From Pseudomonadota bacterium (GTDB lineage Bacteria > Pseudomonadota > Gammaproteobacteria > Steroidobacterales > Steroidobacteraceae): a DNA stretch of 33,060 nucleotides. The DNA lies in contig JAJYLP010000036.1 in NCBI GenBank assembly GCA_021787615.1, forward strand, positions 1 to 33,060, read 5' to 3'. Positions 7,233 to 30,140 of the stretch are shown here, in pieces. A program made the translations under genes and the position numbers. Positions within the stretch are counted from its first letter, which is position 1, and every line of letters begins with the position of its first letter. The notes beneath the pieces were generated by a model, which saw nothing but the letters and a program-made list of their open reading frames with translations, did not search any database and was not told where the DNA came from.

Positions 7233-7366
7233 TTCAATCCGGCGCGAGCGTAAGCCTCTCCGAGGACACCGCGCCGGCGATCCCGCCGATGCGCAGCGCC
7301 CTCCCCGGCCGGCCATCCGCAGCGGCCGCATTGCTCCTGATCCGTCCTGCCGCTTACGATCCCGGC

Positions 7367-11958: not shown

Positions 11959-11995
11959 GCCACAGGAAGCACCAACCGGGCGGCTGAGGCGAGAG

Positions 11996-13723: not shown

Positions 13724-13939
13724 GCAGGCCGGCTCCGCCATGATTTCCCGCTGGATCGCGCCTCAGAATACGTCTGGCCGGCCCACTGCCCATCCGTGTG
13801 TTTACCGACGCTATACGCAGTGCTGCGGATGCCGGCGCCAGCGCACTTGCGCGAGACTCCCTGCGCAGAGATGCGTTCCGAGCGATTGCGCGGCGCCCGA
13901 CCGGCCGAGCGATGCGCTCGGTGCATCCGGTCAGCCCCC

Positions 13940-14950: not shown

Positions 14951-14982
14951 GCACAGGACCCCGCGCCTGCGGCGCCCCTCGC

Positions 14983-16038
14983 TCAATCGCGCGCAGTGGC
15001 CCGGCGAACGTAGCGCAGCGCATCGTCCAGGTAGGAGTACGCCCGTGCCCGCCACTGCCGCGCGTGCCCGGCGAATTGCGGATCGCGCACGTGCCAGGCG
15101 GCGATCTGCGCACGGACCGTGGCCCGACGGCTCATGTAGAACTCGATCAGCGGCGGCGGGATCGGATCACCCATGGCCTGCGCGTACCGGGCGAGCAGAG
15201 CGCGGCCCAACCGCGCCGCCCCCAACCGGCCACACTCCATCGCGAGGAAAGCCATCTCCTCGGCCGGATCGAGCCGGCGCAGCCGCGGGTCGAACTCGAG
15301 ACAGTCGATGACACAGGACGGGTACCGCAAGGTGCCGAGGAACACGTGCTCAGGGCGCAGATCGCCGTGTCCGTCGCGCAGCATCGCCCCGCGCCCATCG
15401 AGCAGCTGCCCGTGACGCGCAAGCCAGGCAAGCTGCCGCTGCATCACGCGATTGACGCGACGCGCCTGCAGCGCCAGATCAGGCGCCAGCAGCTCGCGCG
15501 CGCTGTGCAGGATCTCTCCGCGCAGGTGAGCGCGATAGGCGCGGTCGGTCATCGGCAGCCGCTCGACACCGCGAAAGAATGCGACGAGGCGGGCCACGAC
15601 GGGTTCGAGGTCGCGCGCGCCAACCGACCGCCCGGCGATCGCCTGATCGAGCATGCGCGAGGCGGGAAGCCGGCGCATCTGTACCAGCCAATCCACCACG
15701 CCGCCCGCGCCGGCGCGCAGCGCGAGCCGTCCGTCGCGAGTGCGTCCGAGCGGCACGATGCGCCGATACACCGGCGCAGCGAGACGCCTGTTGAGCTCGA
15801 GCTCGGCCCGACAGGCCCGCTCGCGCAGCGCGACGGTACGGTAATCCATGGACGCCTGGCGCAGCGGCTTCTTCAGCTTGTAGGCGCGCTCGCCCGCGAG
15901 AAAGATCCAGGCGAAATGCGTCTCGATGCTCCAGACGGCGCGCGGGCGGTGCGGATAGTGACGGGCATCGGCGAGAAAGGCGACCTTCTCGTCCAGCCTG
16001 CCACTCGCGGCGCGAGTCCGCGACGCAATGGGTTTCAT
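14983..16038 (-). CDS. Aminoglycoside phosphotransferase-like kinase (COG2187 type)
   Basis: Protein-kinase-fold phosphotransferase of unknown substrate, 351 residues from ATG 16038. An upstream in-frame start would add a low-quality 35-residue extension. The N-terminal part has ETHFAWIFLAGERAYKLKKP (39-58), where the lysines fit the ATP-binding lobe. The catalytic loop is HGDLRPEH (224-231) and the metal-binding segment is DCLEFD (245-250). The Asn that usually ends the HGDxxxxN motif is His here, which I believe is common in this subgroup. Despite the fold name there is no reason to call it an antibiotic resistance enzyme. It is convergent with the prs-like gene and divergent from ppsA. Confidence 0.85.
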   Translation of the reverse strand: MKPIASRTRAASGRLDEKVAFLADARHYPHRPRAVWSIETHFAWIFLAGERAYKLKKPLRQASMDYRTVALRERACRAELELNRRLAAPVYRRIVPLGRTRDGRLALRAGAGGVVDWLVQMRRLPASRMLDQAIAGRSVGARDLEPVVARLVAFFRGVERLPMTDRAYRAHLRGEILHSARELLAPDLALQARRVNRVMQRQLAWLARHGQLLDGRGAMLRDGHGDLRPEHVFLGTLRYPSCVIDCLEFDPRLRRLDPAEEMAFLAMECGRLGAARLGRALLARYAQAMGDPIPPPLIEFYMSRRATVRAQIAAWHVRDPQFAGHARQWRARAYSYLDDALRYVRRATARD

Positions 16039-16299
16039 TCGCGCAGTCTCCGGGCGCCGCGCGGACTGCCCGGGCCCGGCTGGCCCACACCAAAAAGCAA
16101 TTTTCCGCCTGCCGCCCGCCCGCCCGCGATCCGCACTTTCCACAGCAGCAGGCGGCCTGAGCGGCGCATGGCGTCGGCCGCGGCGCCGATAGGCACAACT
16201 GCGGATTCACGCAACGCGTGAGGCGCGTAGCGTCTGCTCACGGGCAGCGTATGCACCGGCGGATGCCGGCAAGCGTGTCGTTTGGCCAGAGGGGTGATG
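16039..16299. promoter_or_regulatory. Divergent promoter region with two dyads
   Basis: The 261-base gap between the kinase and ppsA holds TCACGC-AAC-GCGTGA (16207-16221), a perfect 15-bp dyad. It also holds a small hairpin CCGGC-GGAT-GCCGG (16256-16269), about 30 bases before the ppsA start. Both are candidate control elements. Promoter boxes are not clear. Confidence 0.35.
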
Positions 16300-18732
16300 A
16301 TGTCTCCCGCATCACGTTATATCCGGTTCTTCGAGCAGATCTCGAGCGCGGACCTGCGTCTGGTCGGCGGCAAGACCGCCTCTCTCGGGGAGATGTACCG
16401 CGCGTTGCGCCCGCAAGGGGTGCTGATTCCCAACGGATTTGCGATCACCACCGAGGCATATCGCGACCTGCTCGAGCAGGCGCAGGCGTGGCAGCCGCTG
16501 CGCGAGCTGCTCGCGGATCTGCGGGCCGATGACCCAGGCGAGCTCGCCCGGCGCGGGCAGCGCGCCCGGCAGATCGTCTATGGCGCCGCACTGCCGCGCG
16601 ATCTGCAGGAGGAGATCCTGGCCGCCTATCGCCGCCTGCGCGAGGAATCCGCCGAGCCGATGAGCGTCGCGGTCCGCAGTTCCGCCACCGCGGAGGATTT
16701 GCCCACCACGAGCTTCGCCGGACAGCAGGACTCGTTTCTCAACGTCGAAGGCGAGACGCGGCTGCTGGATGCCTGCCGGCGTTGCTTCGCGAGCCTGTTC
16801 ACCGATCGAGCCATCCACTATCGCGTCGACAACGGCTTCGATCACTTCAAGGTCGCTCTGTCCATCGCGGTCCAGAAAATGGTCCGCGCGGACCGCGGTG
16901 CGAGCGGCGTCATGTTTACACTGGACACCGAGAGCGGCTTTCGCGACGTGGTGCTCATCACCGGCAGCTGGGGCCTCGGCGAGAACATCGTGCAAGGTGC
17001 CGTCGAGCCCGACGAGTTCGTGGTGTTCAAGCCGACTTTTCTCACCGGGCGTCGCGCGGTGCTGCGTCATTCGCTCGGCAGCAAGCAGATCAAGATGATC
17101 TACGCGGACCGCGAGGCGCGTGAGCCGACCCGCAACGTGCCGACGCCGCCGGAGGAACAGCGGCGCTATTGCCTCGCCGACGAGGAGGCGCTGGTCCTCG
17201 CCGATTACGCGATCAAGATCGAGCATCACTACAGCCGGCAGGCCGGTCGGTCCATGCCCATGGACATCGAGTGGGCCAAGGACGGGCGGGATGGCCGCCT
17301 GTATGTCGTGCAGGCGCGCCCCGAGACGAGCGCCTCGCGCCGCCATGGCGCGCTGCTCGAGGAATATCGGCTCGGCGCGAGGCCCGAGCCGCTCGTGACC
17401 GGACACGCGGTCGGGGCGCGCATCGCCAGCGGACCGGCGAGGCTGATCAAGAACGCCGCGGAAATCGCCTCCTTCCGCACCGGAGAGGTGCTGGTCACCG
17501 ACAGCACCACACCGGACTGGGAACCGATCATGCGGCGCGCCGCGGCGATCGTGACGAACCGCGGCGGGCGCACCTGCCACGCGGCGATTGTCGCGCGCGA
17601 GTTTGGCATTCCCGCGGTCGTCGGCACGGTCAATGCCACCGAGCGGCTGGCGAGTGGCCAGCTCGTGACCGTCTCCTGCGCCGAAGGCGACATCGGCAAG
17701 GTCTACGCCGGCAAGATCCCCTTCGAGGTGCGCCGCACCGACCTCGCGACGATCGCGCGGCCGCACACCCAGATGATGCTCATTCTGGCCAATCCGGAGA
17801 CCGCCTTCCAGCTGAGCTTCCTGCCGAATGACGGCGTGGCGCTCGCGCGCATGGAGTTCATCATCACCGAGTACATCAAGGCGCACCCGATGGCGCTGCT
17901 GCACCCGGAACGGGTCGCCGACGAGGCCGAGCGGCGCGCACTCGATGAGCTGACGCGCGGGTACGCCGAGCCGCGCGAGTTCTTCATCGAACGGCTCTCC
18001 GAGGGCCTCGGCACGATCGCGGCCGCGTTCTATCCGAAGCCGGTCATCGTGCGCATGTCCGACTTCAAGAGTAACGAGTACGCAGGGCTTCTCGGCGGGC
18101 GCTGGTTCGAGCCGAAGGAAGACAATCCGATGCTCGGCTTCCGCGGCGCCGCCCGCTACACGCACCCGGCCTATGCCGAGGGGTTCGCGCTCGAGTGCGC
18201 GGCGATCATGCGCGCTCGAGAGGTCATGGGGCTCGTCAACATCAAGCCGATGATCCCGTTCTGCAGGCGCCTCGAGGAAGGCGCCGCCGTCGTCGCCCGC
18301 ATGCGCGAGCTCGGCCTGGAGCGGGGAAAGAACGGGCTCGAGATCTACGTCATGTGCGAGATCCCGAACAATGTGCTGCTGATCGATGAGTTCAGCCGGA
18401 TCTTCGACGGCTTCTCGATCGGCTCGAATGACCTCACCCAGCTCACCCTCGGCGTCGACCGCGACTCGGCCACCGTCGCGTTCGAGTTCGACGAGCGGGA
18501 CCCGGGTGTGCGCAAGCTGTTGAAGCTCGCGGTTGAGGGGTGCCGCCGCAACGGGCGGCACTGCGGGATCTGCGGTCAGGCGCCGTCGGATTACCCGGAG
18601 ATCACCGCCGAGCTGGTCCGTCTCGGGATCGACTCCATCGGTCTGAATCCCGATGCGCTCGTTCCGACGACGCTGCGCGTGCTCGAGCTCGAGCGCGAGC
18701 TCGCCGCCGGCGGCAAACAGTCGGCGGCATAG
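16300..18732 (+). CDS. ppsA: Phosphoenolpyruvate synthase
   Basis: Converts pyruvate and ATP to PEP, AMP and phosphate, the gluconeogenic bypass of pyruvate kinase. The 810 residues fit the family. Order: N-terminal ATP-binding domain (SLGEM, SVAVRSSATAEDLPTTSFAG), central phosphohistidine domain GGRTCHAAIVAREFGIPAV (H427) and C-terminal PEP-binding barrel. The barrel shows EIYVMCEIPNN, GFSIGSNDLTQL and the catalytic-cysteine region HCGICGQAPSD. ATG 16300 is preferred because AGAGGGG (16288-16294) is five bases upstream; ATG 16297 and a TTG at 16282 are also in frame. The PpsR-type regulatory kinase gene that often neighbours ppsA is absent here. A CBS-domain gene follows after 45 bases. Confidence 0.96.
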   Translation: MSPASRYIRFFEQISSADLRLVGGKTASLGEMYRALRPQGVLIPNGFAITTEAYRDLLEQAQAWQPLRELLADLRADDPGELARRGQRARQIVYGAALPRDLQEEILAAYRRLREESAEPMSVAVRSSATAEDLPTTSFAGQQDSFLNVEGETRLLDACRRCFASLFTDRAIHYRVDNGFDHFKVALSIAVQKMVRADRGASGVMFTLDTESGFRDVVLITGSWGLGENIVQGAVEPDEFVVFKPTFLTGRRAVLRHSLGSKQIKMIYADREAREPTRNVPTPPEEQRRYCLADEEALVLADYAIKIEHHYSRQAGRSMPMDIEWAKDGRDGRLYVVQARPETSASRRHGALLEEYRLGARPEPLVTGHAVGARIASGPARLIKNAAEIASFRTGEVLVTDSTTPDWEPIMRRAAAIVTNRGGRTCHAAIVAREFGIPAVVGTVNATERLASGQLVTVSCAEGDIGKVYAGKIPFEVRRTDLATIARPHTQMMLILANPETAFQLSFLPNDGVALARMEFIITEYIKAHPMALLHPERVADEAERRALDELTRGYAEPREFFIERLSEGLGTIAAAFYPKPVIVRMSDFKSNEYAGLLGGRWFEPKEDNPMLGFRGAARYTHPAYAEGFALECAAIMRAREVMGLVNIKPMIPFCRRLEEGAAVVARMRELGLERGKNGLEIYVMCEIPNNVLLIDEFSRIFDGFSIGSNDLTQLTLGVDRDSATVAFEFDERDPGVRKLLKLAVEGCRRNGRHCGICGQAPSDYPEITAELVRLGIDSIGLNPDALVPTTLRVLELERELAAGGKQSAA

Positions 18733-18777
18733 CCGGCCCCACCACTCCATGAGTCACTCCACCGGGATGGCGCTTTT

Positions 18778-19230
18778 ATGAATGTCGGAAGTATCTGCAG
18801 ACACCAGGTCATCACCGTGACGCCGCGTACCGATCTGGTCGCGGCTGCGCAGCTGATGCGTGAACAGCACGTCGGCTTTCTCGTGGTCGTCGAGCCCGAA
18901 CCGAACACAACGTTCGGCCGCCCCGTCGGCGTTCTCACCGATCGGGACATCGTCATTTCCGTCGTGGCGCGCGAGGCAGATCCGAAGCTGCTCACGGTCG
19001 CGGATGTCATGAAGCAGTACCCCGCGATGGTCGATGAGACCGATCCGCTCGATCAGGCACTGCACACGATGCGTCGCATGGGCGTGCGGCGCCTGCCGGT
19101 GGTCGGCTCCGCAGGCATGCTGACGGGCATTCTCGCGCTCGACGACGTGCTCGATGTGCTGTCGGGTGAGATCAGCGACGTGTCCGGCACCGTGCGCAAC
19201 GAGCAGCGCATCGAGAGCCGGCTGCGCTAG
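18778..19230 (+). CDS. CBS-domain pair protein (first copy)
   Basis: Stand-alone Bateman module of 150 residues with two CBS domains, roughly residues 8-68 and 75-135. Motifs are VGVLTDRDIVISVVA and GVRRLPVVGSAGMLTGILAL. Such modules usually bind AMP, ATP or S-adenosylmethionine and regulate a partner; no catalytic or DNA-binding domain is attached. It is paralogous to the protein at 20399-20848 and shares its arrangement, including (L)MRExHVGxLVVV and LTVxDxM-type segments. It is placed between ppsA and pfkA, so sensing adenylate charge for these two enzymes is an attractive inference, unproved. Confidence 0.88.
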   Translation: MNVGSICRHQVITVTPRTDLVAAAQLMREQHVGFLVVVEPEPNTTFGRPVGVLTDRDIVISVVAREADPKLLTVADVMKQYPAMVDETDPLDQALHTMRRMGVRRLPVVGSAGMLTGILALDDVLDVLSGEISDVSGTVRNEQRIESRLR

Positions 19231-19286
19231 TTGACCGGCAGGCGAGACGCCGATGAAGCGCGCGTGTGCCATCCGCAGGGTCACCC

Positions 19287-19314
19287 CGCCCGCGCTGCAG
19301 CTGCAGCGCGGGCG
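19287..19314. repeat. Perfect 28-bp palindrome upstream of pfkA
   Basis: Every base of CGCCCGCGCTGCAG (19287-19300) is mirrored by its complement at 19301-19314, with no spacer. In RNA it would fold into a very stable GC hairpin around GCAGCTGC. No T-run follows, so a standard intrinsic terminator is unlikely. It lies 56 bases after the CBS gene stop and 46 bases before the pfkA start. Confidence 0.75.
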
Positions 19315-19360
19315 AGAGGCAACCCGCCTGCGCGATCGATGCATGGAACCACGGTGAGGC

Positions 19361-20335
19361 ATGCAGACCCGCGTTGCGATACTGACCAGCGGGGGCGATG
19401 CTCCGGGGATGAACGCGGCGATCCGCGCGGCGGTACGCACGGGCATCGCGCACGAGCTCGAGATGTTCGGCGTCCGTCACGGCTACAGCGGGCTGATCGC
19501 GGGTGATTTCCTGCGCCTCGGCGCCCGGGAGGTCGGCGGCATCATCGACCGCGGCGGCACCATGCTGGGCACGAGCCGATGCCCGCCGTTTCTGACCGAC
19601 GAAGGCCAGCAGACGGCCGTGCGGCAGCTCGCCGAGCGGGCAATATCGGGGCTGATCGTCATCGGGGGCAACGGCTCACAGCACGGAGCGCTCGCCATGT
19701 CCGAGCGGGGAGTCGCCGTGGTGGGTATCGCATCGACGATCGACAACGATCTGGCCGGCTCGCAAGTAACTCTCGGGGCGACCACGGCGCTCGATGTCGC
19801 GCTCGAGGCCATCAGCCGGTTGCGCGTGACCGCCTCGGCGCACGGACGCGTCTTTCTTGTCGAGGTCATGGGCCGCACGTGCGGGTATCTGGCGCTGATG
19901 GCCGGAATTGCCGGCGGCGCCGAGGCGATCGTGATTCCGGAGGCGGAGCAGTCGCCCGAGGAGGTCGCGACCGCGATCCAGGAGGCCTATCAGCGCGGCA
20001 AGAGCCACGCCATCGTGGTCGTCGCGGAGGGCGCCAGGCACAACGCCGATGCGCTCGCCCGGCACTTCACCGACCATGCCGAGCGGCTGAACTTCGAGCT
20101 GCGGGTCACGAAGCTCGGTCACGTACAGCGCGGCGGCAGCCCCGGCGCCTTCGATCGGTTGAGCGCGACCCTGCTCGGCGCGACGGCCGTCGAGCGCCTG
20201 TGCGCCGGCGAGCACGCGATTCTGCTCGGCCTCGCCGGGGCACGCGTCGTGACCAGCACCCTGCGCGAGGCGGTGCGGGCCATCAAGCCGCTGGAGCCGC
20301 AGTGGCTGCATCTGGCGCACGTGCTCTCGCGCTGA
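19361..20335 (+). CDS. pfkA: 6-phosphofructokinase
   Basis: Phosphorylates fructose 6-phosphate to the 1,6-bisphosphate, the committed glycolytic step. The 324 residues match short bacterial ATP-dependent enzymes. Motifs are GGDAPGMNAA (11-20) at the nucleotide site, STIDND (125-130, catalytic D128) and MGRTCGYLAL (170-179). GHVQRGGSPGAFDR completes the substrate site. The phosphate-loop segment reads GGNGS (102-106), where E. coli PfkA has GGDGS with metal-binding D103. Pyrophosphate-dependent enzymes usually carry GGDDS, so phosphoryl donor choice is not fully settled but ATP is favoured. Flanking CBS proteins and upstream ppsA suggest coordinated control of opposite carbon fluxes. Confidence 0.94.
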   Translation: MQTRVAILTSGGDAPGMNAAIRAAVRTGIAHELEMFGVRHGYSGLIAGDFLRLGAREVGGIIDRGGTMLGTSRCPPFLTDEGQQTAVRQLAERAISGLIVIGGNGSQHGALAMSERGVAVVGIASTIDNDLAGSQVTLGATTALDVALEAISRLRVTASAHGRVFLVEVMGRTCGYLALMAGIAGGAEAIVIPEAEQSPEEVATAIQEAYQRGKSHAIVVVAEGARHNADALARHFTDHAERLNFELRVTKLGHVQRGGSPGAFDRLSATLLGATAVERLCAGEHAILLGLAGARVVTSTLREAVRAIKPLEPQWLHLAHVLSR

Positions 20336-20398
20336 GCCCGGTGCCAAGGCGCTCGGGCGAAGCCAGAGCGGCTCATTCCATACCGAGGAGCGATGACC

Positions 20399-20848
20399 AT
20401 GAAATTGACAGAGATTTGCACGCCTGAGGTCATCTCCTGCGCCGCCGACATCACGGCTCTGCACGCGGCGCGGCTGATGCGCGAGCGGCATGTGGGCGAC
20501 CTGGTCGTCGTCGACGAGAGCGGCGAGGATCCCGCGCCGATCGGCATCGTGACCGACCGCGACATCGTGGTCGAGGTGCTGGCCAAGGACCTCGATCCGG
20601 CCAAGGTCACCGTGCGCGATATCATGCGTTTTCCTCTCGTCATCGCGCGCGCCTCGGAAGAAGCCGAAAACGCGCTCGAGCGGATGAGAGTGCACGGTGT
20701 GCGCCGTGTTCCTGTGGTGGACGACGCCTCGAAACTCGTCGGCGTGCTCTCTCTGGACGATCTGATCAGGCGACTGGCCGCCGACGCAATGACCCTCGCC
20801 GACATCGTCGCTCGCGAGCAGGACCACGAGCATCGTGTGCGTCGTTGA
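20399..20848 (+). CDS. CBS-domain pair protein (second copy)
   Basis: Two tandem CBS domains and nothing else, 149 residues from ATG 20399. That start is preferred because GAGGAG (20385-20390) is 8 bases upstream; an in-frame ATG at 20393 is too close to it. Motifs are IGIVTDRDIVVEVLAK and GVRRVPVVDDASKLVGVLSL. Paralogous to the product of 18778-19230, so pfkA is bracketed by two related nucleotide-sensing modules. The C-terminal tail (about 125-149) is charged and differs between the copies, which may direct different partners. It starts 63 bases after pfkA and is probably cotranscribed. Confidence 0.88.
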   Translation: MKLTEICTPEVISCAADITALHAARLMRERHVGDLVVVDESGEDPAPIGIVTDRDIVVEVLAKDLDPAKVTVRDIMRFPLVIARASEEAENALERMRVHGVRRVPVVDDASKLVGVLSLDDLIRRLAADAMTLADIVAREQDHEHRVRR

Positions 20849-20912
20849 TTCGGGCCCGTGCGGCCGAGGGCGGTCGCGCCTGCACCGACTCGTTCCCGAC
20901 GGCGCGCGCTGC

Positions 20913-20918
20913 TAGAAT
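20913..20918 (+). promoter_or_regulatory. Candidate -10 box for the old yellow enzyme gene
   Basis: GCTAGAATCC contains TAGAAT (20913-20918), five of six matches to the -10 consensus, about 52 bases ahead of the start codon. No good -35 is visible at the right distance. Confidence 0.35.
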
Positions 20919-20969
20919 CCACGCCATCCACCGTTCACGTCCGCCGTCCATGCGAACAGCCCCGTCACG

Positions 20970-22076
20970 ATGAATACGCCCGCTCTGTTCAGCCCCCTGC
21001 GCATCCGCAATCTCGATCTCGTCAATCGGATCGTGATCGCACCGATGTGTCAGTACTCGGCGGACCATGGCCGCATGAGCGACTGGCATCTGATCCACCT
21101 CGGTCACCTGGCCCTCTCCGGGGCCGCGCTGCTCACGATCGAGGCGACCGCCGTGATGCCAGAGGGCCGCATCACCTACGGCGACGTCGGGCTGTGGGAC
21201 GACCAGACCCAGGCGGCCATGGGAGATACGATTGAGCGCATTCGCCGCTGGTCCGCGATACCGCTCGCCGTACAGCTGGCGCATGCCGGCCGCAAGGCCT
21301 CGACCGAGGTGCCCTGGAGAGGCGGCAGGCAGCTCTCCCCCGGCGATCCGCTCGGCTGGCAGACCGCCGCACCCTCTGCCATCGCCTTCGCCGACGGACA
21401 ACATCCACCGGCGGCGCTCGATCGCAGCGGCATGCGCTCGGTGCGCGAGGCGTTCACCTCAGCGGCGGCGCGCGCGGCCCGCATTGGGCTTGACGCCGTG
21501 CAGATCCACGCCGCTCACGGCTATCTACTGCACCAGTTCCTCTCCCCGCTGGCCAATCACCGCACCGACGAATATGGCGGATCGATCGAGAACCGGTTGC
21601 GCTTTCCGCTGGAGATCTTCGAGGCGGTTCGGGCCGCGTTTCCCGCCGAGCGGCCGGTCTCGGTGCGCGTGTCGGCGACGGATTGGTTCGACGGGGGTTG
21701 GGACCTCGAGCAGACCATCGCATTCGCCGAGAAGCTGCAGCAACGCGGCTGCGATGCGATTCATGTCTCGAGCGGCGGGCTGCACCCCGCCCAGCGAATC
21801 CCCGCGGGACCGGGCTATCAGGTGCCGCTGGCGCGCGCCGTCAAGGCCGCCGTGCGCATCCCGGTCGTTGCCGTCGGGCTGATCACGGGCTTCGAGCAGG
21901 CCGAAGCCATCATCGCCACCGGCGATGCAGACCTCATCGCCCTTGCCCGCACGGCGCTCTACGACCCGCGCTGGCCGTGGCATGCCGCGGCGGAACTCGG
22001 CGCTCAGGTGCACGCGCCGAAGCAGTATCTGCGCTGCGAACCCGCGCGCCTGCGCGGCCTGTTCAAGACCGACTGA
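20970..22076 (+). CDS. NADH:flavin oxidoreductase, old yellow enzyme family (YqjM/XenA class)
   Basis: FMN-dependent ene-reductase that reduces activated C=C bonds, and in some members nitro compounds, using NAD(P)H. The 368 residues form a single TIM barrel. Class markers of the YqjM/XenA branch are present: MCQYS with C27 and Y29, QLAHAGRK (102-109), and QIHAAHGYLLHQFLSP with H180, H183 and Y185 as substrate-binding and proton-donor residues. HRTDEYGGSIENR (197-209) and the C-terminal RWPWHAA are also typical. The physiological substrate is unknown. It appears monocistronic and converges with the six-gene uptake cluster, stops 9 bases apart. Confidence 0.93.
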   Translation: MNTPALFSPLRIRNLDLVNRIVIAPMCQYSADHGRMSDWHLIHLGHLALSGAALLTIEATAVMPEGRITYGDVGLWDDQTQAAMGDTIERIRRWSAIPLAVQLAHAGRKASTEVPWRGGRQLSPGDPLGWQTAAPSAIAFADGQHPPAALDRSGMRSVREAFTSAAARAARIGLDAVQIHAAHGYLLHQFLSPLANHRTDEYGGSIENRLRFPLEIFEAVRAAFPAERPVSVRVSATDWFDGGWDLEQTIAFAEKLQQRGCDAIHVSSGGLHPAQRIPAGPGYQVPLARAVKAAVRIPVVAVGLITGFEQAEAIIATGDADLIALARTALYDPRWPWHAAAELGAQVHAPKQYLRCEPARLRGLFKTD

Positions 22077-22085
22077 GCGCAAGTC

Positions 22086-23594
22086 CTAGCGCCGGATCGC
22101 CCACAGCACGACCGCGTCGAACAGCGCCTTGCCCTGAGGGGTCATATCGTCGTACGAGGGGTTATCGAGCGGCAGCAGCGCGCGCCGCGCCGGCGCGATG
22201 AACCCGTCGGCCATCCGCGCCCCCTTGGGATAGCCGAAGATCGCATCCTCGCGCGGTTCGTTGGGCAGCGTGGCGATCACGGTGGCATCCGGCAGCGGCC
22301 AGGCCCATTTCAGAACCCCCGGGTGGTAGGTGAATTTCATCGGCCCGGGCTTCAGGCCCGCCGCCATGGGGCTCCAGGCGCCGACGATGTCGAGATAGTT
22401 CTCCGGCGGATCGTCGCTCTCGAGCAGCTCGCCGTGCTCCCCGTAATCGGTGTAACGGTCCCGGCCGGCGAAATGCAGCGAGTCCGACAGCAGGCCTTCG
22501 AGCGAGATCAGCGGAATCGGCGCATCGACGTATTTGTTGGCGAGCTTCCACTTCGAACACGTGCCGGAAATGATGACCAGATCCATCCCGCGCGCAACGC
22601 TCTGCGGCGCGGTCTGGTCCGTCACCGTCACCTCAAATCCGAGACGGCGCAGGTGCGCAACGATGTGCGCATCGGAGCGCCGCCCCTCCCCGCCATTGAC
22701 CCGCTCGACGTAGAGCACCTTCGTGCCGCGCGCGGCCCGGCGCAGCGCGGCATCGAGCGCCTGCGGATCGTAAAGCGGCGGCGGCGGCGGCGGCGATGCG
22801 GCCCAGCGCAGGGCGGCATCGAAGAGCTTCAGGCCGATCGCCCAATGGCGAAGATTGGGGTCCGCGGCAGGGGGTCCGTACACCGCGGTGAGCAGATGAA
22901 AATCGTCATTGCCGAGATAGAACCCCACGCGGCGCGCCGGCGCCGTGCGCCCGTTCTCGAGCGTCGCTTCGCGCTCGTAGGTGAACACGGCGGCATAGCG
23001 GCGGGAGCCGAAGAAGTCCGCGATTACGGTGCCGCCCGGGCCCGGGCGTCCCCAGCCCGCCGTCTCGGGCTCCAGGTACAGCGTGCCGAACAGCTGCGGC
23101 CTCAGGCCCACGGCGCGGCTGATCTCGGAGGTGATGTTGGCGCCGAAGCCGTAGAGGACGGCGAAGCTGTCCGCGTAGTGCTGCACTGGATCGATGACAT
23201 CGAAGTCGCGGTGCAGCACCGGACCGGTCATGCCGAGGTTCGGGTAATCGAATGTGTTCCAGGTGAATACCGGAACCGTCGTGTCCGCAAACTTCTCGCC
23301 GAGCTCGTGCGCATCGGCGGTGGAGGAGATCACGATCAGGGCGGCGCCGTCGGCAGCCGAGGGCGCAACCGCCGCATCGACGGTGCGCACCACGAAGCCG
23401 AGTTTGCGCAGATGCCGCGCCACGAGTGCATCGTCATTGGGCTTGGGGCTCGCCTTGCCGCCGGTGACGAACAGCACCGTCTTGCCCGCAAGCTGCGACC
23501 ATGGCACGAGCGCCGCCTGTGCCTGCGGCATCAGAATGGTCGCAAGCCCGACCGAGAGCGCGAGGATGCGCAATCCACTAAGGTGACGGTTCAT
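22086..23594 (-). CDS. Exported protein of unknown function with tandem-duplicated ThuA-like domains
   Basis: Unrecognised 502-residue protein, last gene of the cluster. ATG 23594 overlaps the propeller gene stop in ATGA. A Sec signal peptide (residues about 1-28, ending AQA) predicts export. The mature protein is two related halves. Half 1 (about 36-266) has KTVLFVTGG, LRKLGFVVRTVD, ALIVISST, TVIA, APARRVGFYL and LFDAALRWA. Half 2 (about 290-502) has TKVLYVERV, LRRLGFEVTVTD, DLVIISGT, TVIA, APARRALLPL and LFDAVVLWA. A hexaproline linker (about 268-273) joins them. The alternating strands suggest a ThuA/glutamine-amidotransferase-like Rossmann fold; this is a fold guess, not a function. No catalytic triad is evident. 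Confidence 0.85.
   Translation of the reverse strand: MNRHLSGLRILALSVGLATILMPQAQAALVPWSQLAGKTVLFVTGGKASPKPNDDALVARHLRKLGFVVRTVDAAVAPSAADGAALIVISSTADAHELGEKFADTTVPVFTWNTFDYPNLGMTGPVLHRDFDVIDPVQHYADSFAVLYGFGANITSEISRAVGLRPQLFGTLYLEPETAGWGRPGPGGTVIADFFGSRRYAAVFTYEREATLENGRTAPARRVGFYLGNDDFHLLTAVYGPPAADPNLRHWAIGLKLFDAALRWAASPPPPPPLYDPQALDAALRRAARGTKVLYVERVNGGEGRRSDAHIVAHLRRLGFEVTVTDQTAPQSVARGMDLVIISGTCSKWKLANKYVDAPIPLISLEGLLSDSLHFAGRDRYTDYGEHGELLESDDPPENYLDIVGAWSPMAAGLKPGPMKFTYHPGVLKWAWPLPDATVIATLPNEPREDAIFGYPKGARMADGFIAPARRALLPLDNPSYDDMTPQGKALFDAVVLWAIRR
22775..22795. repeat. Trinucleotide repeat (GCG)7 encoding the polyproline linker
   Basis: Seven perfect GCG units in the gene at 22086-23594. 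On the coding strand they encode most of the run of prolines joining the two halves. Slippage would change linker length without breaking the frame. Confidence 0.7.
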
Positions 23595-24613
23595 TGAGAC
23601 TCCGAGACCGGAGCGGCGAGCCGCCACAGCGCGGCCGGCTTGCCGCCACCGCGCGCGACGGCGAGCCACAGCACACCGGCCGCCGGGGCGAGCGCGAGCG
23701 CCGTGATGCGGCGCGTCACGGGCAATCGCCCGCCGGCCCGGTAGCGAACGAAGGCCTGCATCTGAATCGCGCTCAGCGCCCCGCCGCCGGCGATGAACAC
23801 CCCGCCCTTCCAGCCGTGCGGGCCGAGCGGGCGGTAGGCAAACGCGGCGCGCAGATGTCCGCCTCGCTGGATCGGCAATCTGACGAAGGTGAAGCCGAGA
23901 TCGGCATCGATGATGAGCGCGCGGCCGTTGCTGCACGCGACGAACAGGCGCCGGCCGACCGTATCCATCGCCAGAGCGTGCGGCGCATGGCAGCGCCGCA
24001 GCGGGATAGCGCCCTCATATCTCATCCCGCGGGCATCGGTGACATCGATCGCATCGTGTGTCGCGTTCGCCACGTACAGCGTTCCGCGCCCGTTGGCGGC
24101 CATTTGTCCCAATGCACCGGCGAGCCGCACGCTCCCGAGCGTCCGGCCGGTTTGCGGATCGAGCCGCGTAACGGTGTGGCCGGCGCGGTCCTCGATAAAG
24201 AGCATGTGCACCGCCGGATCGTAGAGCAGTGCCGAAGGTGAGGCGGCGATGAGCGCGCGCTGGCGAAGCACGCGCAATGACTTCGCGGCGAGAAATTCGA
24301 GACTCGAGGGATGACTCACGGCCACGACGATCTGCCCATCGACCGCAGCCAAGGCTCGCACCGTGCCGTCGAGGCGCCGGTGAGCGATCCGAAGCGCGCC
24401 GGTAGGAGCATAGAGGCTCACGGAGTCACCTTGCCCGGCATAGAGGTCACGTCCGACAACCGCCAGCGCGCTGACGTTCGCCGCGGCCGGCAGCGCGATG
24501 CGGCGCAGCGCGCGATAGGGAAACACCTTAGCCCCGGCAGCAGGACAAGCCACCGCCAGCGCCGCAACCCACATCAGGTGCGACCCGAGGCGCCGCACGT
24601 GAGCCGCCCTCAT
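23591..24613 (-). CDS. Exported YncE-like beta-propeller protein
   Basis: Predicted periplasmic protein of 340 residues with an N-terminal signal peptide (about 1-28, hydrophobic MWVAALAVACPAAGA). The remainder is a series of short repeats of the seven-bladed propeller type: VVGRDLYAGQGDSVSLY, YDPAVHMLFIEDRAGHTV, NGRGTLYVANATHDAIDV and MDTVGRRLFVACSNGRALI. No enzyme motif is visible, so a binding or scaffold role is likely. In E. coli the propeller gene yncE lies beside the TonB receptor gene yncD, a parallel to this operon. It overlaps both neighbours by ATGA, so all are translationally coupled. Confidence 0.82.
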   Translation of the reverse strand: MRAAHVRRLGSHLMWVAALAVACPAAGAKVFPYRALRRIALPAAANVSALAVVGRDLYAGQGDSVSLYAPTGALRIAHRRLDGTVRALAAVDGQIVVAVSHPSSLEFLAAKSLRVLRQRALIAASPSALLYDPAVHMLFIEDRAGHTVTRLDPQTGRTLGSVRLAGALGQMAANGRGTLYVANATHDAIDVTDARGMRYEGAIPLRRCHAPHALAMDTVGRRLFVACSNGRALIIDADLGFTFVRLPIQRGGHLRAAFAYRPLGPHGWKGGVFIAGGGALSAIQMQAFVRYRAGGRLPVTRRITALALAPAAGVLWLAVARGGGKPAALWRLAAPVSESQ

Positions 24614-25791
24614 CGATGCGCACCCGCCGGCGCAAGCCGCGCGATTCGCAGCGCCGCGCTCACCTGGAATGCCCGCAATGGCAGAAAGACCGCCTCGCGC
24701 CGCACGTCAAATTGGCCCTGGCGGCTGAGAATGAGCCGCAGAAACTCCCCGAGCGCCCGCCTCGGCCGCTCGCCGGGGCGCAGATTGACGTTCGCATAGA
24801 GCAGCCGGCTGAGCGGATAGCGGGCGAGCGCGACATTGGTGTAGGTCGGGGAAAGCGCCCGCTCGCCGCGACCCACCGCCAGCACCTTCACACCCGCATC
24901 AAGGAATGCCAGACCCGTGTACCCGATGCCATCAGGATCGGCAGCGACACGCCTCGCGAGTGGGAACACGGTGCCGGAGAGACGCATGCCTCGCCGCCAG
25001 TGTCCGCGATGAGCGCCGACATCGAGAACGCGCTGACGGACGAACTCCTCGAAGCCGTTCCACGGCTTGATGGCATACACATGGATCGGGCGGCGCGACC
25101 ATGCGCCGCTCACGCCGAGATCGCCCCAGGTGTCCGCTTGACGATCCCCGCGCAGATGCGAGCGCGAGAACACCGCATCGAGCTGCTTCAGCGTCAGGCG
25201 CTTGAGGGGGTTGCGCGGGTTGACGATGATCGCGATGGCGTCGAGATATCCGAACTGCCGCCAGGAGCCGCCCGAGACCGGCACGCTGGTGGGCAGGTAG
25301 CCGTACTCGGCCCGGAAAGTCGCGACGTCCACTGGCCTCAGCTCCCGCGACACGAAGGCGATGTCGATGCGGCCCTGCCGCAGAGCCTGCGCCGCATCGT
25401 CCCCCTCGTACGGCGGGCGCAAAATGATGCGCACGTGCGGGTAGAAACGCGCGAACGAGTGGATCCACGCCCGCATCAGCGCGGGCATGGTGTCCGAGCA
25501 CATCAGCCGCAGAGTACCGGAGAGGCCGCGGCCGTAGCGCGGCGTGAAGCTGCGCAGTGCGGGATCCAGTGTGGGCTGAAGCACTTCCGGAGCCGGTAGC
25601 GCCCGACCCTTGAGCATCCCCGCCCGATCCTGCGCACGGGTCTGCACTGGGTGGGTCGGGGCGATCGGCAACTGCCACTCCACGGTGGCCGGATGCACGG
25701 ACGCGCCTGCTGCGAGCGCGCACGCGGGAGAGAGCAGCGCGCCGATGGCGAGACATCGCCAGGTGCACGCCATACGTCGTTTCCGGATCAT
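24610..25791 (-). CDS. PstS-like periplasmic substrate-binding protein
   Basis: Phosphate-binding-protein-like (PBP superfamily) product of 393 residues with a signal peptide (about 1-27, cut near CALA). The body follows the PstS pattern: GTLRLMCSDTMPALMRAW near the first strand, QGRIDIAFVSRELRP for the ligand-site serine/arginine region, and LDAIAIIVNPRNPLKRLTL followed by DPDGIGYTGLAFL. The C-terminal LLYANVNLRPGERP resembles PstS ends. No PstCAB permease genes are in the window, so it is an orphan binding protein coupled to a TonB receptor. The ligand may be phosphate, a phosphorylated compound or another oxyanion. ATGA overlaps with both neighbours. Confidence 0.85.
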   Translation of the reverse strand: MIRKRRMACTWRCLAIGALLSPACALAAGASVHPATVEWQLPIAPTHPVQTRAQDRAGMLKGRALPAPEVLQPTLDPALRSFTPRYGRGLSGTLRLMCSDTMPALMRAWIHSFARFYPHVRIILRPPYEGDDAAQALRQGRIDIAFVSRELRPVDVATFRAEYGYLPTSVPVSGGSWRQFGYLDAIAIIVNPRNPLKRLTLKQLDAVFSRSHLRGDRQADTWGDLGVSGAWSRRPIHVYAIKPWNGFEEFVRQRVLDVGAHRGHWRRGMRLSGTVFPLARRVAADPDGIGYTGLAFLDAGVKVLAVGRGERALSPTYTNVALARYPLSRLLYANVNLRPGERPRRALGEFLRLILSRQGQFDVRREAVFLPLRAFQVSAALRIARLAPAGAHR

Positions 25792-28334
25792 TGCAGATAC
25801 ACGCGCGCCGAGAGCGTGAACATGCGCGGCGCGCCCGGCAGAACGCTGAGGTTATTGGTGAATCCCGAGCTCTCGTAGTATGTCGAATCCAGCAGATTCG
25901 TCACTTTGAACGTCAAGGTGTATTGATCGCGCACGTAGTACAGGGCGGCATCCACTCGGGTATAGGCCGGCAGCTCCAACATCGGCTCCGCCTTGGTCGG
26001 GCTGATGCCGTTGCGCTGCCCGTCGTGGATGATGCCGAGCCCGAAGCCCAGACCCCGCAATGCCGGCGTCTGGAACTGATAGCGGGACCACAGGTGCTCG
26101 GCCATCAGCGGGACGTTCGGCAGCTGCAGGCCGACCTCGTATTTGTCGGTCGACGCCGTGATGCGCGCGCGCGTGTACGCCGCGCCGGCGGTCAGCTGCC
26201 AGTTCGGCAGCGGCCGGGCGTTGAGCTCGAACTCCACGCCCTTGGACTGCGCCTTGCCGACCTGCTCGTAGCAGGTGCCGTAGTCGGCACAGGGGAAGTG
26301 GCTGAAGGTGTTCTTCTCGTCGATTCGGTACAGCGCCAGGGTGGAGGTCAGCCGCCCGCGCAGGAAGCTGTCCTTCTCACCGACTTCGATCTGATTCGCC
26401 GAAGTCGGCACGAAATTGCTCGTGCCGTTGATGCTGATGGCGTTCGAGGCCGGTGGCTCGAACGATGTGCTGTAGCTGGCGTAGAGGCTCCAGTGCTTGT
26501 CGGGCTGATAGACGACGCCCCCCATGGGCAGCACATCGTGCGCCGTCGAGACCGTCTCCGGCGCCGTCGTGCCCGTGATCGGATAGTAGGTGCGCTGCCA
26601 CTGCTTGTCGTAGGCGTAGCGCAGTCCCACCGATGCCTTCCAGTGCCTCGAGATCGTCAGCATGTCGGCCATGTAGGCGCCGAAGTTCTCGATGACCTCG
26701 TTGCGGTCGTCGAGCAGCGTATCCTTCCCCGGCGCCACGAGCGGCAGCGAGGACAGCGGGGGCACGTTGGCATAATCGGGATTGTAGATGTTGATGTCGA
26801 GCGAGTCCGGTCCTGTGGCCGGGGCATTGAAGAACTGCTTGCGGTCCTCATAGGCCGAGTCGCGCCCGGCGGTCAGGCCCACGACCATGTTCTGGGCGAC
26901 GCCGAGGGTCCTGAAATGCATCTGCAGGTGGGTGTCGGCATAGTGATAGCCGCGCTGGTTCAACTGACCGCGTGCACGGCGCGTGACGTAGAGCAGATTC
27001 TTGCCGACCCCCGTCACGTCGAAGCCGTGCGCCTCGTCCGTGTGCCACACGTCGCGCGTCTCGAGGTGCCAGGTCCAGCCGTTGCCGAAGCGGTGCACGA
27101 AAAACATCGACAGGACGCTGCCGTGCTCCTTGCCATAATCGCTCGGCTGCTGGTAGCGCGTCGTGATGGGCGCGACCAGATGAATGTTGTTGTCGGGTGC
27201 CACGAGGTAGCTGTCGTAGCTGTACTTGAGGGCTTGATACACGTACTGCAGCGTCAGCTTGGTGGCGGCCGAGACGCGCCACGTGAAGCTCGGCGCGACA
27301 TAGATGTTCCGGTTGTAACCGAACGTCCGGAACGTATCGGCGTTCTGGTCCGAGACGATCATCCGATAGAGAAAGTGCCGATTGCCTGCGATGGCGCCGG
27401 TGGCGTCCATCCCCGCCGTGAACCCGGGCCGCTGTCCGATGCCGACGCCGTGGCCGTCATAGGTCGTGCCGATCGCGGAGAGCTCGACGGACGTGCGGGC
27501 CTGGGGCTTCTTCGTCACCAGATTGATGAACCCGCCGGGCTGCTCCTCGCCGTTCATCACGGATGCCGGTCCACGCACCACGTCGATGCGCTGAATGCCG
27601 ATGGTCACCGGCGAGCCGAAGCGGGTCTCGAGCCCGGGCAGCCCGTCGACCAGGATCGAGTTCTGATCGTTCGCGCCGCTCGTGAAGCCGCGGAACACGA
27701 TGTCGTAGCCGGTGCTGCCGGCGCTCTGAATGCCCGTCATGTAGGCGTAGAGCGAGGACACCTGCTGCGCCTCGATGGCGTGCATGAAGCTCTGCGTGTA
27801 CGTGGAAATCGAGAACGGCGTGTCTTTCGCCGGCAGATTCATCTTCATCGCGCTGAACCCGGCGCGCGATATGAACCGCGCCAGCACGAGGACGGTCTCA
27901 AGTGATGCCGGCTTCTTCGGTGCGGCTGCGGCTATGGTCCGTGGCTTCGGCGCCGCCTGCGGCGGCAGCCTCGGCGTCGGCCTCGGGGCGGACGGATCGG
28001 CCTCGATGGCGCGCGAGCGCCGGATCGCGATGGTGCGCGCATTGACCCGCGTGAAGGTGAAGCCGGTGCCGCGCAGCAGCCGCGTCAGTGCATCCTGGGC
28101 CGCCATCCGGCCGCTGACCCGCCCGGCCTTCAGGTGCTCGAGCGCCCGATAGTCGAACAGCAGCTGCAGGTGCGCCTGGTGGGCAAAGGCGCGCAGCGCA
28201 CCCGGCATCGGCTGAGCCGGGATGCTGAACGCGATGGGGCTCAGTGGTGTGCCCGCGAAAGCCGGCGCCGCGAGCTGGCCGCAGGCGAGCAAAATCAAGC
28301 CGCAGCCGAGCCGGCATCGTGTGATGCGTGCCAT
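25788..28334 (-). CDS. TonB-dependent siderophore-type outer membrane receptor with STN signalling domain
   Basis: Outer membrane active transporter of 848 residues. It has a signal peptide (1-27, AFA), an STN domain (about 35-107, FSIPAQPMPGALRAFAHQAH) and a Pro/Ala linker. A TonB-box-like ETVLV (146-150), plug domain (ILVDGLPGLETRFG, VVRGPASVMNGEEQPGGFIN) and 22-strand-type barrel follow, ending NLLDSTYYESSGF and SARVYLQ. Plug and barrel resemble ferric-siderophore receptors, but the substrate is not certain. The STN domain and the fecI/fecR genes upstream mean it can signal its loaded state through FecR to the sigma factor. GAGGGGG is correctly spaced before ATG 28334. The gap to fecR is 83 bases, room for its own promoter. 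Confidence 0.95.
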   Translation of the reverse strand: MARITRCRLGCGLILLACGQLAAPAFAGTPLSPIAFSIPAQPMPGALRAFAHQAHLQLLFDYRALEHLKAGRVSGRMAAQDALTRLLRGTGFTFTRVNARTIAIRRSRAIEADPSAPRPTPRLPPQAAPKPRTIAAAAPKKPASLETVLVLARFISRAGFSAMKMNLPAKDTPFSISTYTQSFMHAIEAQQVSSLYAYMTGIQSAGSTGYDIVFRGFTSGANDQNSILVDGLPGLETRFGSPVTIGIQRIDVVRGPASVMNGEEQPGGFINLVTKKPQARTSVELSAIGTTYDGHGVGIGQRPGFTAGMDATGAIAGNRHFLYRMIVSDQNADTFRTFGYNRNIYVAPSFTWRVSAATKLTLQYVYQALKYSYDSYLVAPDNNIHLVAPITTRYQQPSDYGKEHGSVLSMFFVHRFGNGWTWHLETRDVWHTDEAHGFDVTGVGKNLLYVTRRARGQLNQRGYHYADTHLQMHFRTLGVAQNMVVGLTAGRDSAYEDRKQFFNAPATGPDSLDINIYNPDYANVPPLSSLPLVAPGKDTLLDDRNEVIENFGAYMADMLTISRHWKASVGLRYAYDKQWQRTYYPITGTTAPETVSTAHDVLPMGGVVYQPDKHWSLYASYSTSFEPPASNAISINGTSNFVPTSANQIEVGEKDSFLRGRLTSTLALYRIDEKNTFSHFPCADYGTCYEQVGKAQSKGVEFELNARPLPNWQLTAGAAYTRARITASTDKYEVGLQLPNVPLMAEHLWSRYQFQTPALRGLGFGLGIIHDGQRNGISPTKAEPMLELPAYTRVDAALYYVRDQYTLTFKVTNLLDSTYYESSGFTNNLSVLPGAPRMFTLSARVYLQ

Positions 28335-28375
28335 ACGACCCCCTCAGTCGAATTGTTGTCGTCCGCCTCGATATC

Positions 28376-28397
28376 GACGGCTGGCGGCGCGGTTTCC
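28376..28397 (-). promoter_or_regulatory. Possible ECF-sigma promoter ahead of the TonB receptor gene
   Basis: In the 83-base fecR-receptor gap the minus strand carries GGAAAC (28392-28397) and, 12 bases later, CGTC (28376-28379). These are the core words of many ECF promoters, but the spacing is shorter than the usual 15-17, so this is weak. Confidence 0.25.
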
Positions 28398-28417
28398 TAT
28401 ACGCGGGGGGCGCGCCC

Positions 28418-29428
28418 TCAGAGACCGGCAGAGCGATACAGCTCGATCGAGTGGTGCGGGCCCGGCCGGGCCTCGATATTGAACGAGCGCGCGAGCGCGG
28501 CCACGAAGCTGTGAACGTCGAGCGCGCGGAAATTCCCGCCGATGCGCAGCCGCGCGAGGGACGACTCGTCGATGACGAGCCTGCGGTAGTTGTAGCGGTT
28601 GAACTCCGCGACCGCCTGCTGCAGCGTCTCGCCCTGGAAATACAGCTTGCGCCGTTCCCAGAGCAGCCGCTGGGCCATCTCCTGAGGTGAAGCCCGCCGC
28701 ACCGTCACCCGGTGCGCCGTCAGAACGGCAAGCTGATGGGCCCCGAGCGTGCGCAGCGGCAGGCGCCGTGCGCTCGGCTCACCACCGACGGGCAGCACCG
28801 CAACCCGGCCACTCGTGACCAGGACCTCGACAGTCCGCGCATCGTCGCGCCGGACGTCAAAGATGGTCCCGACATCGCGCACCACACGACCATCGACCGC
28901 GACTTGAAACGGACGTCGGCTGTCGTGCACAACGTGAAACTGCGCTTCGCCCTCGACGAGCGTCACAGCGCGCAACGCCGGCAGGAAGTGCACGCGCAAT
29001 TCAGTGTGGGCGTTGAGCGTTGCGACCGTACCGTCCGGCAGGGCCACACGCGATAGTCCGGCCGGGCCGGTGCGGTAGACGCGGGTCCCGGCGTGCGGCG
29101 AGAGGCCCCACCAGGCGAGAAATGCGCCGGCCGCCGCCAAAGCTGCCGCTGCCCGCAGAGAGATGCGCGCGGCCGCCGGCCGCGCCATGCGCCGGGCGGA
29201 CGGCCGGGCGGGTGCCAGCAGATCGGCATCGACGGAGCCACTCATCGGGCGCAGCCGCGCGAGGCGCTCGGTGCGGCTCCACGCCTCGGCAAGCCGCAGA
29301 TACGCCGCCCGATGGCGTGGATCGGCCAGCAGCCAGCTCGCGAGCTCGGCGTCCTCGCACGACCCGCGCGCGTCGCAGCGGGCAATCCAGCTCGCCGCCT
29401 GGGCTTCGATGTCGGCCGCCTCAGTCAT
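28418..29428 (-). CDS. fecR: FecR-family anti-sigma factor/sigma regulator
   Basis: Inner-membrane transducer that holds the cognate ECF sigma factor and releases it when the TonB receptor is loaded. It has 336 residues. The cytoplasmic N-terminal domain (about 1-85) has AASWIARCDARGSCEDAELA, the WLLADPRHRAAY motif typical of FecR and the W of EAWSRTERL. One membrane helix lies at about 89-107, and the periplasmic FecR domain follows with LPDGTVATLNAHTELRV and LVEGEAQFHVVHDSRRPFQV. The C-terminus (FQGETLQQAVAEFNRYN onward) is an STN-like domain. The start overlaps the sigma factor stop by 8 bases, giving tight coupling. Confidence 0.93.
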   Translation of the reverse strand: MTEAADIEAQAASWIARCDARGSCEDAELASWLLADPRHRAAYLRLAEAWSRTERLARLRPMSGSVDADLLAPARPSARRMARPAAARISLRAAAALAAAGAFLAWWGLSPHAGTRVYRTGPAGLSRVALPDGTVATLNAHTELRVHFLPALRAVTLVEGEAQFHVVHDSRRPFQVAVDGRVVRDVGTIFDVRRDDARTVEVLVTSGRVAVLPVGGEPSARRLPLRTLGAHQLAVLTAHRVTVRRASPQEMAQRLLWERRKLYFQGETLQQAVAEFNRYNYRRLVIDESSLARLRIGGNFRALDVHSFVAALARSFNIEARPGPHHSIELYRSAGL

Positions 29429-29999
29429 GCCGCTTCAACCGTCGGGCCAGACGCCCGGCCAGGGAATACGGTCGGTCGGCAACCACTTCGCGCGCGAACA
29501 GCGATTCGGCGCAGCGCCGGACCGCACGTGCAAGCAGCTGTTCAACTGTGCTCTCCTTGATCCGCAGATGTCGGGCAATCTCACGCTGTGACAACCCGTA
29601 GACGCGCCGCAGCGTCAACGCCTGCCGGCAACGCTCCGGCAGCTCTGCGACACACTGCGCGAGCAGCGCCAGCTCCTGGTGCGCATTGACGATCTCCTCG
29701 ACCTGGGCGCTCTCATCGAGCACATCGAGCGCGGCGATATCGGCCACGAGGTTGATGGGCACCACGTCGCGGTGGCGCAGCCAGTCGAGCGCCACATTGC
29801 GCGCCACCGTCAGCGCGAATGCGCGCACCGATCGTATCTCGACGCCCGAGTCGTGCTGAGCGCTGAGCAGGCGCGCATAAGTCTCCTGCAGCAGCTCGTC
29901 GACGTCCGCCGCATTGTGCGCGTAACGAAAGAGGAACGCCCGCAGAAGCCCTTCGCATTCAAGCGCCTCGAGAAGATATCGACTGCCCGCTGCCGCCAC
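29421..29999 (-). CDS. fecI: ECF RNA polymerase sigma factor, FecI-like
   Basis: Extracytoplasmic-function sigma factor expected to direct transcription of the downstream receptor cluster. Region 2 is seen in LLRAFLFRYAHNAADVDELLQETYARLL and AFALTVARNVALDWLRHRD (split here as two neighbouring segments). Region 4 appears as LPERCRQALTLRRVYGLSQR and IARHLRIKESTVEQLLARAV. I prefer GTG 29999, preceded by AGAGGGGGA, giving 192 residues as usual for the family. In-frame ATGs at 30026 and 30086 would add 9 and 29 atypical residues and lack good ribosome binding sites. The adjacent overlapping fecR and STN receptor identify the system type. Confidence 0.92.
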   Translation of the reverse strand: MAAAGSRYLLEALECEGLLRAFLFRYAHNAADVDELLQETYARLLSAQHDSGVEIRSVRAFALTVARNVALDWLRHRDVVPINLVADIAALDVLDESAQVEEIVNAHQELALLAQCVAELPERCRQALTLRRVYGLSQREIARHLRIKESTVEQLLARAVRRCAESLFAREVVADRPYSLAGRLARRLKRHD

Positions 30000-30102
30000 T
30001 CGTCCCCCTCTTGCGCAAGCGAGCATGCGCCGACAGGTTGGGGCCTGCAAGCAGTCCGGAGCGAGTTGCGCAGCGCGCAGCGCCAAGCGCGCGCTGATGT
30101 GT

Positions 30103-30140
30103 AGGAGATTGCCGACTCGTCCGTCTTGAGGGGATTGCCG
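30103..30140. repeat. Two direct repeats upstream of the sigma factor gene
   Basis: AGGAGATTGCCG (30103-30114) and AGGGGATTGCCG (30129-30140) match at 11 of 12 bases and are 26 bp apart. They fill the gap between the zwf stop and the sigma factor gene, where a regulator of the cluster would bind. Confidence 0.45.

Follow-up and report, generated by a model that had tools for sequence, protein, structure and literature searches.

A surface-signalled TonB receptor cluster with a PstS-fold protein whose phosphate-type loops are replaced, and its possible carboxylate-type ligand

What does a siderophore-type TonB-dependent receptor import when it is encoded together with a PstS-like binding protein, a propeller-like protein and a duplicated exported protein, and when the cluster lacks an ATP-binding cassette (ABC) permease gene? 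This question is raised by six genes on the minus strand (29999 to 22086) of a 33,060-nucleotide stretch of DNA from a Steroidobacteraceae bacterium (contig JAJYLP010000036.1), which we analyzed at its full length and call the window. We found that the order of the last four genes is conserved among relatives, that the phosphate-type loops of the PstS-like protein are replaced, and that organic-acid-type symporters lie near the set in some relatives. Our leading, still tentative reading is that the cluster encodes a surface-signalled TonB-dependent importer whose ligand is of carboxylate type and probably metal-bound, and that this importer uses a repurposed PstS-fold protein. It draws on the conserved order (22 of 26 loci), the W[NG]G[FY]EE loop of the PstS-like protein, the symporters (13 of 33 loci), a second receptor kind (TBDR2) that occurs with two kinds of symporter, the co-occurrence of a 2-hydroxycarboxylate transporter (2HCT) with the set, a paper on the citrate:proton symporter CitMHS, and one open frame in a related locus (L040; L numbers denote loci) that joins a PstS-like domain to a propeller match. 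Because the set often stands beside organic-acid transporters in relatives, its ligand is probably a metal-bound organic acid and not phosphate.

Six genes and a conserved order

An earlier note, made from the letters of this DNA, had assigned the six genes to families, and all six are confirmed, with the models for ECF sigma, FecR, Plug plus barrel and PBP_like_2 all above their cut-offs. The first gene (29421..29999) encodes a FecI-like extracytoplasmic function (ECF) sigma factor (Sigma70_r2 44.7 bits and r4_2 60.3 bits, both above cut-offs); its GTG start was picked by comparison with kin and agrees with L052, L059 and L062, and an alternative, longer frame has a TTG start at 30086. It is followed by a FecR-like sigma regulator (28418..29428; PF04773, 57.7 bits against a cut-off of 24), a TonB-dependent receptor of the siderophore-receptor type with an N-terminal STN signalling domain (25788..28334; TIGR01783, STN, 3qlb), an exported binding protein of PstS fold with replaced phosphate-type loops (24610..25791; PBP_like_2 above cut-off), an exported beta-propeller-like protein that is YncE-type by weak match (23591..24613; NF052280, PQQ_2, 5c2v, 3vgz), and an exported protein with two tandem ThuA/class I glutamine-amidotransferase-like domains, recognized by fold similarity and an internal repeat (22086..23594). 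The overlaps described in the earlier note are exact: fecI and fecR share 8 bases, ATGACTGA, at 29421-29428, and three consecutive ATGA overlaps (25788-25791, 24610-24613 and 23591-23594) join the last four genes. The note had concluded that the set acts as one unit, which holds in the sense of one functional unit, given the kept order; fecR and the receptor gene, however, are 83 bases apart, and a conserved promoter-like element in this gap makes two transcription units possible.

We compared this arrangement across loci from a scan of named genomes (69 loci, of which 27, L054-L080, were used) and from searches of further genomes. With repeated contigs dropped and the window counted, the last protein is strongly matched in 33 loci. 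L076 and L079, two contigs of a single assembly with a portion of the last gene on each, probably represent the same locus. In seven of the 33, the DNA stops less than 2.3 kb upstream, a limit chosen after the list was seen, and these are not judgeable. Among the 26 judgeable loci, 22 (window included) carry the receptor, PstS-like, propeller and last genes in this order on one strand, which exceeds what chance would give, so the expectation that homologous neighbourhoods keep the four overlapping genes together was borne out. The exceptions are L041, which has no receptor; L045, with receptor and PstS-like genes on the opposite strand; L078, with the PstS-like gene on the opposite strand; and L080, where this receptor kind is missing and the outer-membrane barrel protein encoded upstream matches TonB receptors weakly.

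The carriers of the order belong to the window's family, to Rhodanobacter-type bacteria (Rhodanobacter and Dyella strains among them) and partly to Acidobacteria. Across the examined loci, identity to the window goes down to about 42% in the receptor and the last protein and to 28% in the propeller. The last protein has matches in 12 of 150 genomes of the window's family (9 full-length) and in 3 of 321 genomes class-wide, where only the window's own match is full-length and the two others are weak and partial; the system is thus rare and patchy. Of 147 genomes from the family to which the Rhodanobacter record belongs, 12 match, 7 of them in full, and the other five (L154-L158) carry a single-domain relative adjoining a TonB receptor, with a 4-base overlap in L154; the domain therefore accompanies TonB receptors beyond this set too. 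Several relatives have GGDEF (diguanylate cyclase) genes next to the set (L041:4899-6266 and kin; L059:1394-3412). Judged by title and the start of the abstract, no open-licence PubMed Central paper that we found describes this gene set. Surface-signalled TonB uptake is a known kind of system; its variant here, in which a converted PstS fold belongs to a conserved set of partners, did not come up in searches of the open-licence literature.

A PstS fold without the phosphate-type loops

The PstS-like protein would seem to point to phosphate, and the earlier note had proposed the import or extracellular sensing of a phosphate-bearing, phosphonate or oxyanion ligand. Its fold is indeed that of PBP_like_2/PstS, with 31-34% identity over the domain to 4omb and 4pqj; the phosphate-binding 4omb is the closest, and an SR motif at residues 148-149 is retained. 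The loops, however, are replaced. At the loop position that we take, from E. coli PstS, to contact phosphate through SGT-type residues, all 117 parsed sequences among the 120 homologs listed have W[NG]G[FY]EE, and none has SG there. A looser search for SGT matched 33 of the 120 at unrelated places and was superseded by this comparison by loop position. The genome's own PstS, encoded beside PstC on contig C38, has intact SGSGTG, GASD and HRTDGSGDTF loops, and it was the comparison with this protein and with 4omb that ruled out phosphate or phosphonate as the leading idea. On the phosphate-binding model TIGR02136, the cluster protein scores 87.2 bits against a cut-off of 206.6, a model on which the genome's own PstS was not scored.

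As the earlier note had remarked, the PstS-like gene is an orphan: the cluster holds no ABC permease gene, no PstCAB adjoins the PstS-like gene, and the PstC of the genome sits on contig C38 with the other PstS. Among gene families that recur in at least three loci (blast clusters, only some of them named by Pfam), none was identified as a phosphate gene; a phosphodiesterase-like gene in L048 would instead suit a phosphate ligand. With the loops replaced in the orthologs, an intact-loop PstS beside PstC elsewhere and organic-acid-type symporters recurring near the cluster, we abandon the proposal of the note as the leading explanation and regard a phosphate-bearing, phosphonate or oxyanion ligand as very improbable. 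Thus, the cluster protein resembles the PstS phosphate-binding proteins in fold and domain identity and differs from them in its loops, in the missing adjoining PstCAB and in a conserved N-terminal extension. Among the 120 closest homologs listed, 33 of 38 named entries bear a phosphate or PstS name. If our reading is true, proteins named phosphate-binding PstS serve another kind of uptake, with the phosphate-type loop gone.

Loops also vary among paralogs. Of 62 loops in PstS-like proteins, 2 are of the SGT type (one in L039 and one in L040), 25 of the orthologous W[NG]G type, and 35 of other types. In L040 (12926-15202), one open frame, whose start is uncertain, combines a PstS-like domain with a weak propeller match. 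Separately, we observed nine PstS-like genes around one TonB receptor in L039:1-12612. It is conceivable, though we hold it to be doubtful, that a PstS-fold family has been turned into receptor-side binders of non-phosphate ligands, with tandem arrays by TonB receptors, differing ligand loops, one propeller fusion, and proton symporters of organic acids in place of ABC transporters; this would be a Proteobacteria/Acidobacteria counterpart of the SusD/XusB partners of Bacteroides, and the binders would have stayed hidden because they are named phosphate-binding PstS.

Receptor, symporters and the probable ligand

The receptor itself exceeds the cut-offs for Plug and barrel and for TIGR01783 (268.3 bits against 223.5). 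Its closest solved relative is the enantio-pyochelin receptor 3qlb (E 7.1e-41), and its solved relatives comprise pyochelin, FhuE, FhuA and pseudopaline receptors. This raises the alternative that the cluster takes up ferric (xeno)siderophores of the hydroxamate, catecholate or pyochelin type, with the propeller holding the siderophore as XusB does and with the symporters either incidental or carrying a stripped carboxylate part. A precedent for such a propeller exists in Bacteroides, where a seven-bladed propeller lipoprotein, XusB, passes ferric siderophores to its TonB transporter (PMC13142918). The cluster is like XusABC in pairing a TonB transporter with a propeller; it differs in having PstS-like and ThuA-like partners, no lipobox seen by eye, and no DUF4374 (XusB) match among the Pfam matches at E 1, a search whose program filters drop weak matches. 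In addition, no siderophore ABC importer, reductase or esterase was seen in the cluster, and organic-acid-type symporters lie near 13 of 33 loci. We therefore consider siderophore uptake possible and somewhat unlikely.

The propeller stays under the cut-offs of the YncE model NF052280 (20.1 bits against 400) and of PQQ_2 (18.5 bits against 27.6), and among solved structures it matches hydrazine synthase beta (5c2v, E 1.5e-6) and YncE (3vgz, E 7e-4). The propeller label given by the earlier note is hence weak. Its likening of the cluster to E. coli yncD/yncE is loose: a receptor with a propeller is common to both, and the receptor reaches 62 bits against 1200 on PqqU(YncD) and the propeller 20 bits against 400 on YncE, scores so far under the cut-offs that we rejected membership in YncD/YncE.

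The 13 loci with symporters comprise nine with a transporter of the major facilitator superfamily (MFS; L044, L054, L065, L066, L069, L070, L073, L149 and L150), two with 2HCT (L053 and L060) and two with CitMHS (L049 and L050); CitMHS is also found in L048, which has a PstS ortholog and lacks a full last gene. In both L049 and L050, CitMHS directly precedes the receptor, with a gap of 31 bases in L049 and with its stop overlapping the first possible receptor ATG in L050, and the CitMHS genes of these loci are accompanied by a TctD-like regulator and a 2CSK_N sensor kinase. CitMHS has been described as a carrier of citrate-metal complexes (PMC8537297). The link to such metal-citrate symporters and their two-component regulators is their place directly before the receptor in these two relatives; the window's gene run has no citrate symporter. 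Seven further CitMHS loci of the family (L182-L188) have a receptor-like frame by blast in five (23-31% identity to the queries), by eye in one, and none in one, which gives weak support to a CitMHS-receptor link generally. TBDR2 occurs with MFS in six loci (L044, L065, L066, L073, L149 and L150) and with 2HCT in L060 and G139, so one receptor kind goes with two unrelated symporters. Across the family, 2HCT is found in 8 of 150 genomes: 5 of the 9 with a full-length last gene and 3 of the other 141 (hypergeometric 1.1e-5, with relatedness ignored); in the window's genus, all 4 carriers of the set have it, as do 2 of the 10 non-carriers (15/1001 by our own arithmetic). CitMHS is in 9 of 150 family genomes, and 2 of these belong to the 9 whose last gene is full-length.

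Several observations weigh against a carboxylate-type ligand. The receptor is nearest to siderophore receptors and reaches only 45.1 bits on the FecA model NF041676 (cut-off 1100), far enough under the cut-off that FecA membership was rejected. None of the three symporters is in the fetched DNA of 20 of the 33 loci, many of them on short contigs, and among these 20 are the window and, apart from L054, its closest kin in the genus. The MFS proteins are related to the aromatic-acid/H+ family at 177 bits against a cut-off of 418.55, which does not fix their substrate, and kinship among the Rhodanobacter-type loci means that the MFS cases do not count as independent. The 2HCT gene of the window's genome lies on another contig (at the end of C45), and the gene after it looks ECF-like by eye; the run in the four genus mates L176, L177, L180 and L181 is 2HCT, ECF-like, FecR and a different large receptor. 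A search of the window's genome for TIGR00784 (citMHS) gave no match at E 1e-50, though contig C3 carries a broader PF03600 match. A close MFS relative is likewise missing from that genome, where the five matches have about 27-34% identity. Finally, the phosphodiesterase-like gene of L048 adjoins a second receptor, and the CitMHS-linked binding protein has a weak match to a 2-aminoethylphosphonate binder (26.7 bits against a cut-off of 310).

The symporters also admit a metal-free organic acid of another kind, such as an aromatic or sugar acid, taken up through a nutrient receptor and not an iron receptor. The MFS near nine of the 33 loci is of the aromatic-acid/H+ or Sugar_tr kind, and named ThuA-fold members, whose fold the last protein resembles, act on sugars. 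Set against this are FecI/FecR in the window's kin, the siderophore-type receptor, and CitMHS and 2HCT in other loci, and we judge this explanation unlikely.

The last protein is duplicated, as the earlier note had claimed: its N and C halves are 28% identical (E 1.5e-21). Both domains show ThuA/class I glutamine-amidotransferase fold similarity, and many homologs carry the precomputed Pfam label PF27100. A sequence search of solved structures with its alignment gave nothing useful (two matches, E 0.69 and 0.78), and Foldseek with the protein model gave an IFT52 domain and GMP synthases as best matches, with low TM-scores.

For the importer of a carboxylate-type ligand that we favour, we propose the following route. 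Ligand on the receptor would signal through the STN domain to FecR and on to the ECF sigma factor, which, by family knowledge and the conserved promoter-like element, may transcribe the receptor gene and the three exported genes behind it. TonB would drive the ligand, most likely a citrate-like, carboxylate-type chelate and probably with metal, to the periplasm, where the PstS-fold protein without a phosphate-type site, the propeller and the tandem ThuA-like protein would bind, hold or process it. In relatives, the inner membrane would be crossed via a proton symporter and not an ABC transporter. If this is true, TonB receptors outside Bacteroides have co-transcribed partner proteins of their own, and TonB uptake of chelated organic acids is tied to proton symporters.

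Signalling, a candidate promoter and the flanks

The signalling part has the logic of the E. coli Fec system, in which FecI, FecR and FecA carry out surface signalling for ferric citrate (PMC9249621). An ECF sigma factor, FecR and an STN receptor would act alike in both, and citrate is the suspected ligand class here. Nevertheless, the FecA, FecR and FecI models score far under their cut-offs, three exported proteins follow the receptor, and the locus, flanked by an Oxidored_FMN gene and by zwf/gnd (zwf by eye), has no FecBCDE-type ABC genes, for which the remaining genome was not searched. We agree with the earlier note that this is not a standard FecIRA system. The cluster also differs from the phosphate-linked signalling system VreAIR of Pseudomonas, whose receptor lacks a barrel (PMC4971064), in that the cluster receptor has one. 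The STN domain scores 33 bits in the genome search, above the cut-off, and 28.1 against a cut-off of 28.4 on the protein.

FecI and FecR close to those of the window precede the receptor in L051, L052, L056, L059, L062 and L079; L068 has FecR at the contig end, and L060 a more distant FecI/FecR pair. No pair is found upstream in 10 of the 22 loci with at least 3 kb upstream (L049, L050, L065, L066, L067, L069, L070, L149, L150 and L153), although in L049 a FecR-like gene stands at the opposite end of the set. In those pair-less loci whose receptor matches were inspected, the match begins no earlier than residue 125, so that STN is missing. Judged from these sequences, the pair-less loci and STN-less receptors make the signalling a local addition of the window's closer kin and the four-gene set the core. 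The sigma factor and FecR genes, which had been counted as part of the set, are thus present and overlapping in the window and stand outside the widely conserved set.

Between fecR and the receptor lies a promoter-like element, TRTAGGA[AG]A-N12-CCGTC (28376..28401, minus strand), a candidate ECF promoter. Its TAGGA and CCGTC blocks are invariant in all eight aligned gap sequences (the window and seven kin), in which mean column identity is 65%. A second, inverted copy, found by pattern match, lies between zwf and fecI and points toward zwf (30100..30125, plus strand). The pattern, picked post hoc after being seen, matches the window twice where 0.13 matches are expected, and 1 of 100 shuffles reached 2. 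Similar reversed blocks seem to lie upstream of fecI in L051, L052, L056 and L079 (by eye).

Elsewhere in the window, a central-metabolism run occupies 11786-22076 on the plus strand, with a phosphoribosyl-pyrophosphate-synthetase-like domain, a phosphoenolpyruvate-synthase-like protein, two CBS-type proteins (the second at 20393-20848, by eye), phosphofructokinase and Oxidored_FMN. Further away, at 738-2072, 2106-4565, 7289-8425 and 9709-11958, we observed a HipA-like gene, XdhC and two molybdopterin-binding proteins, on both strands.

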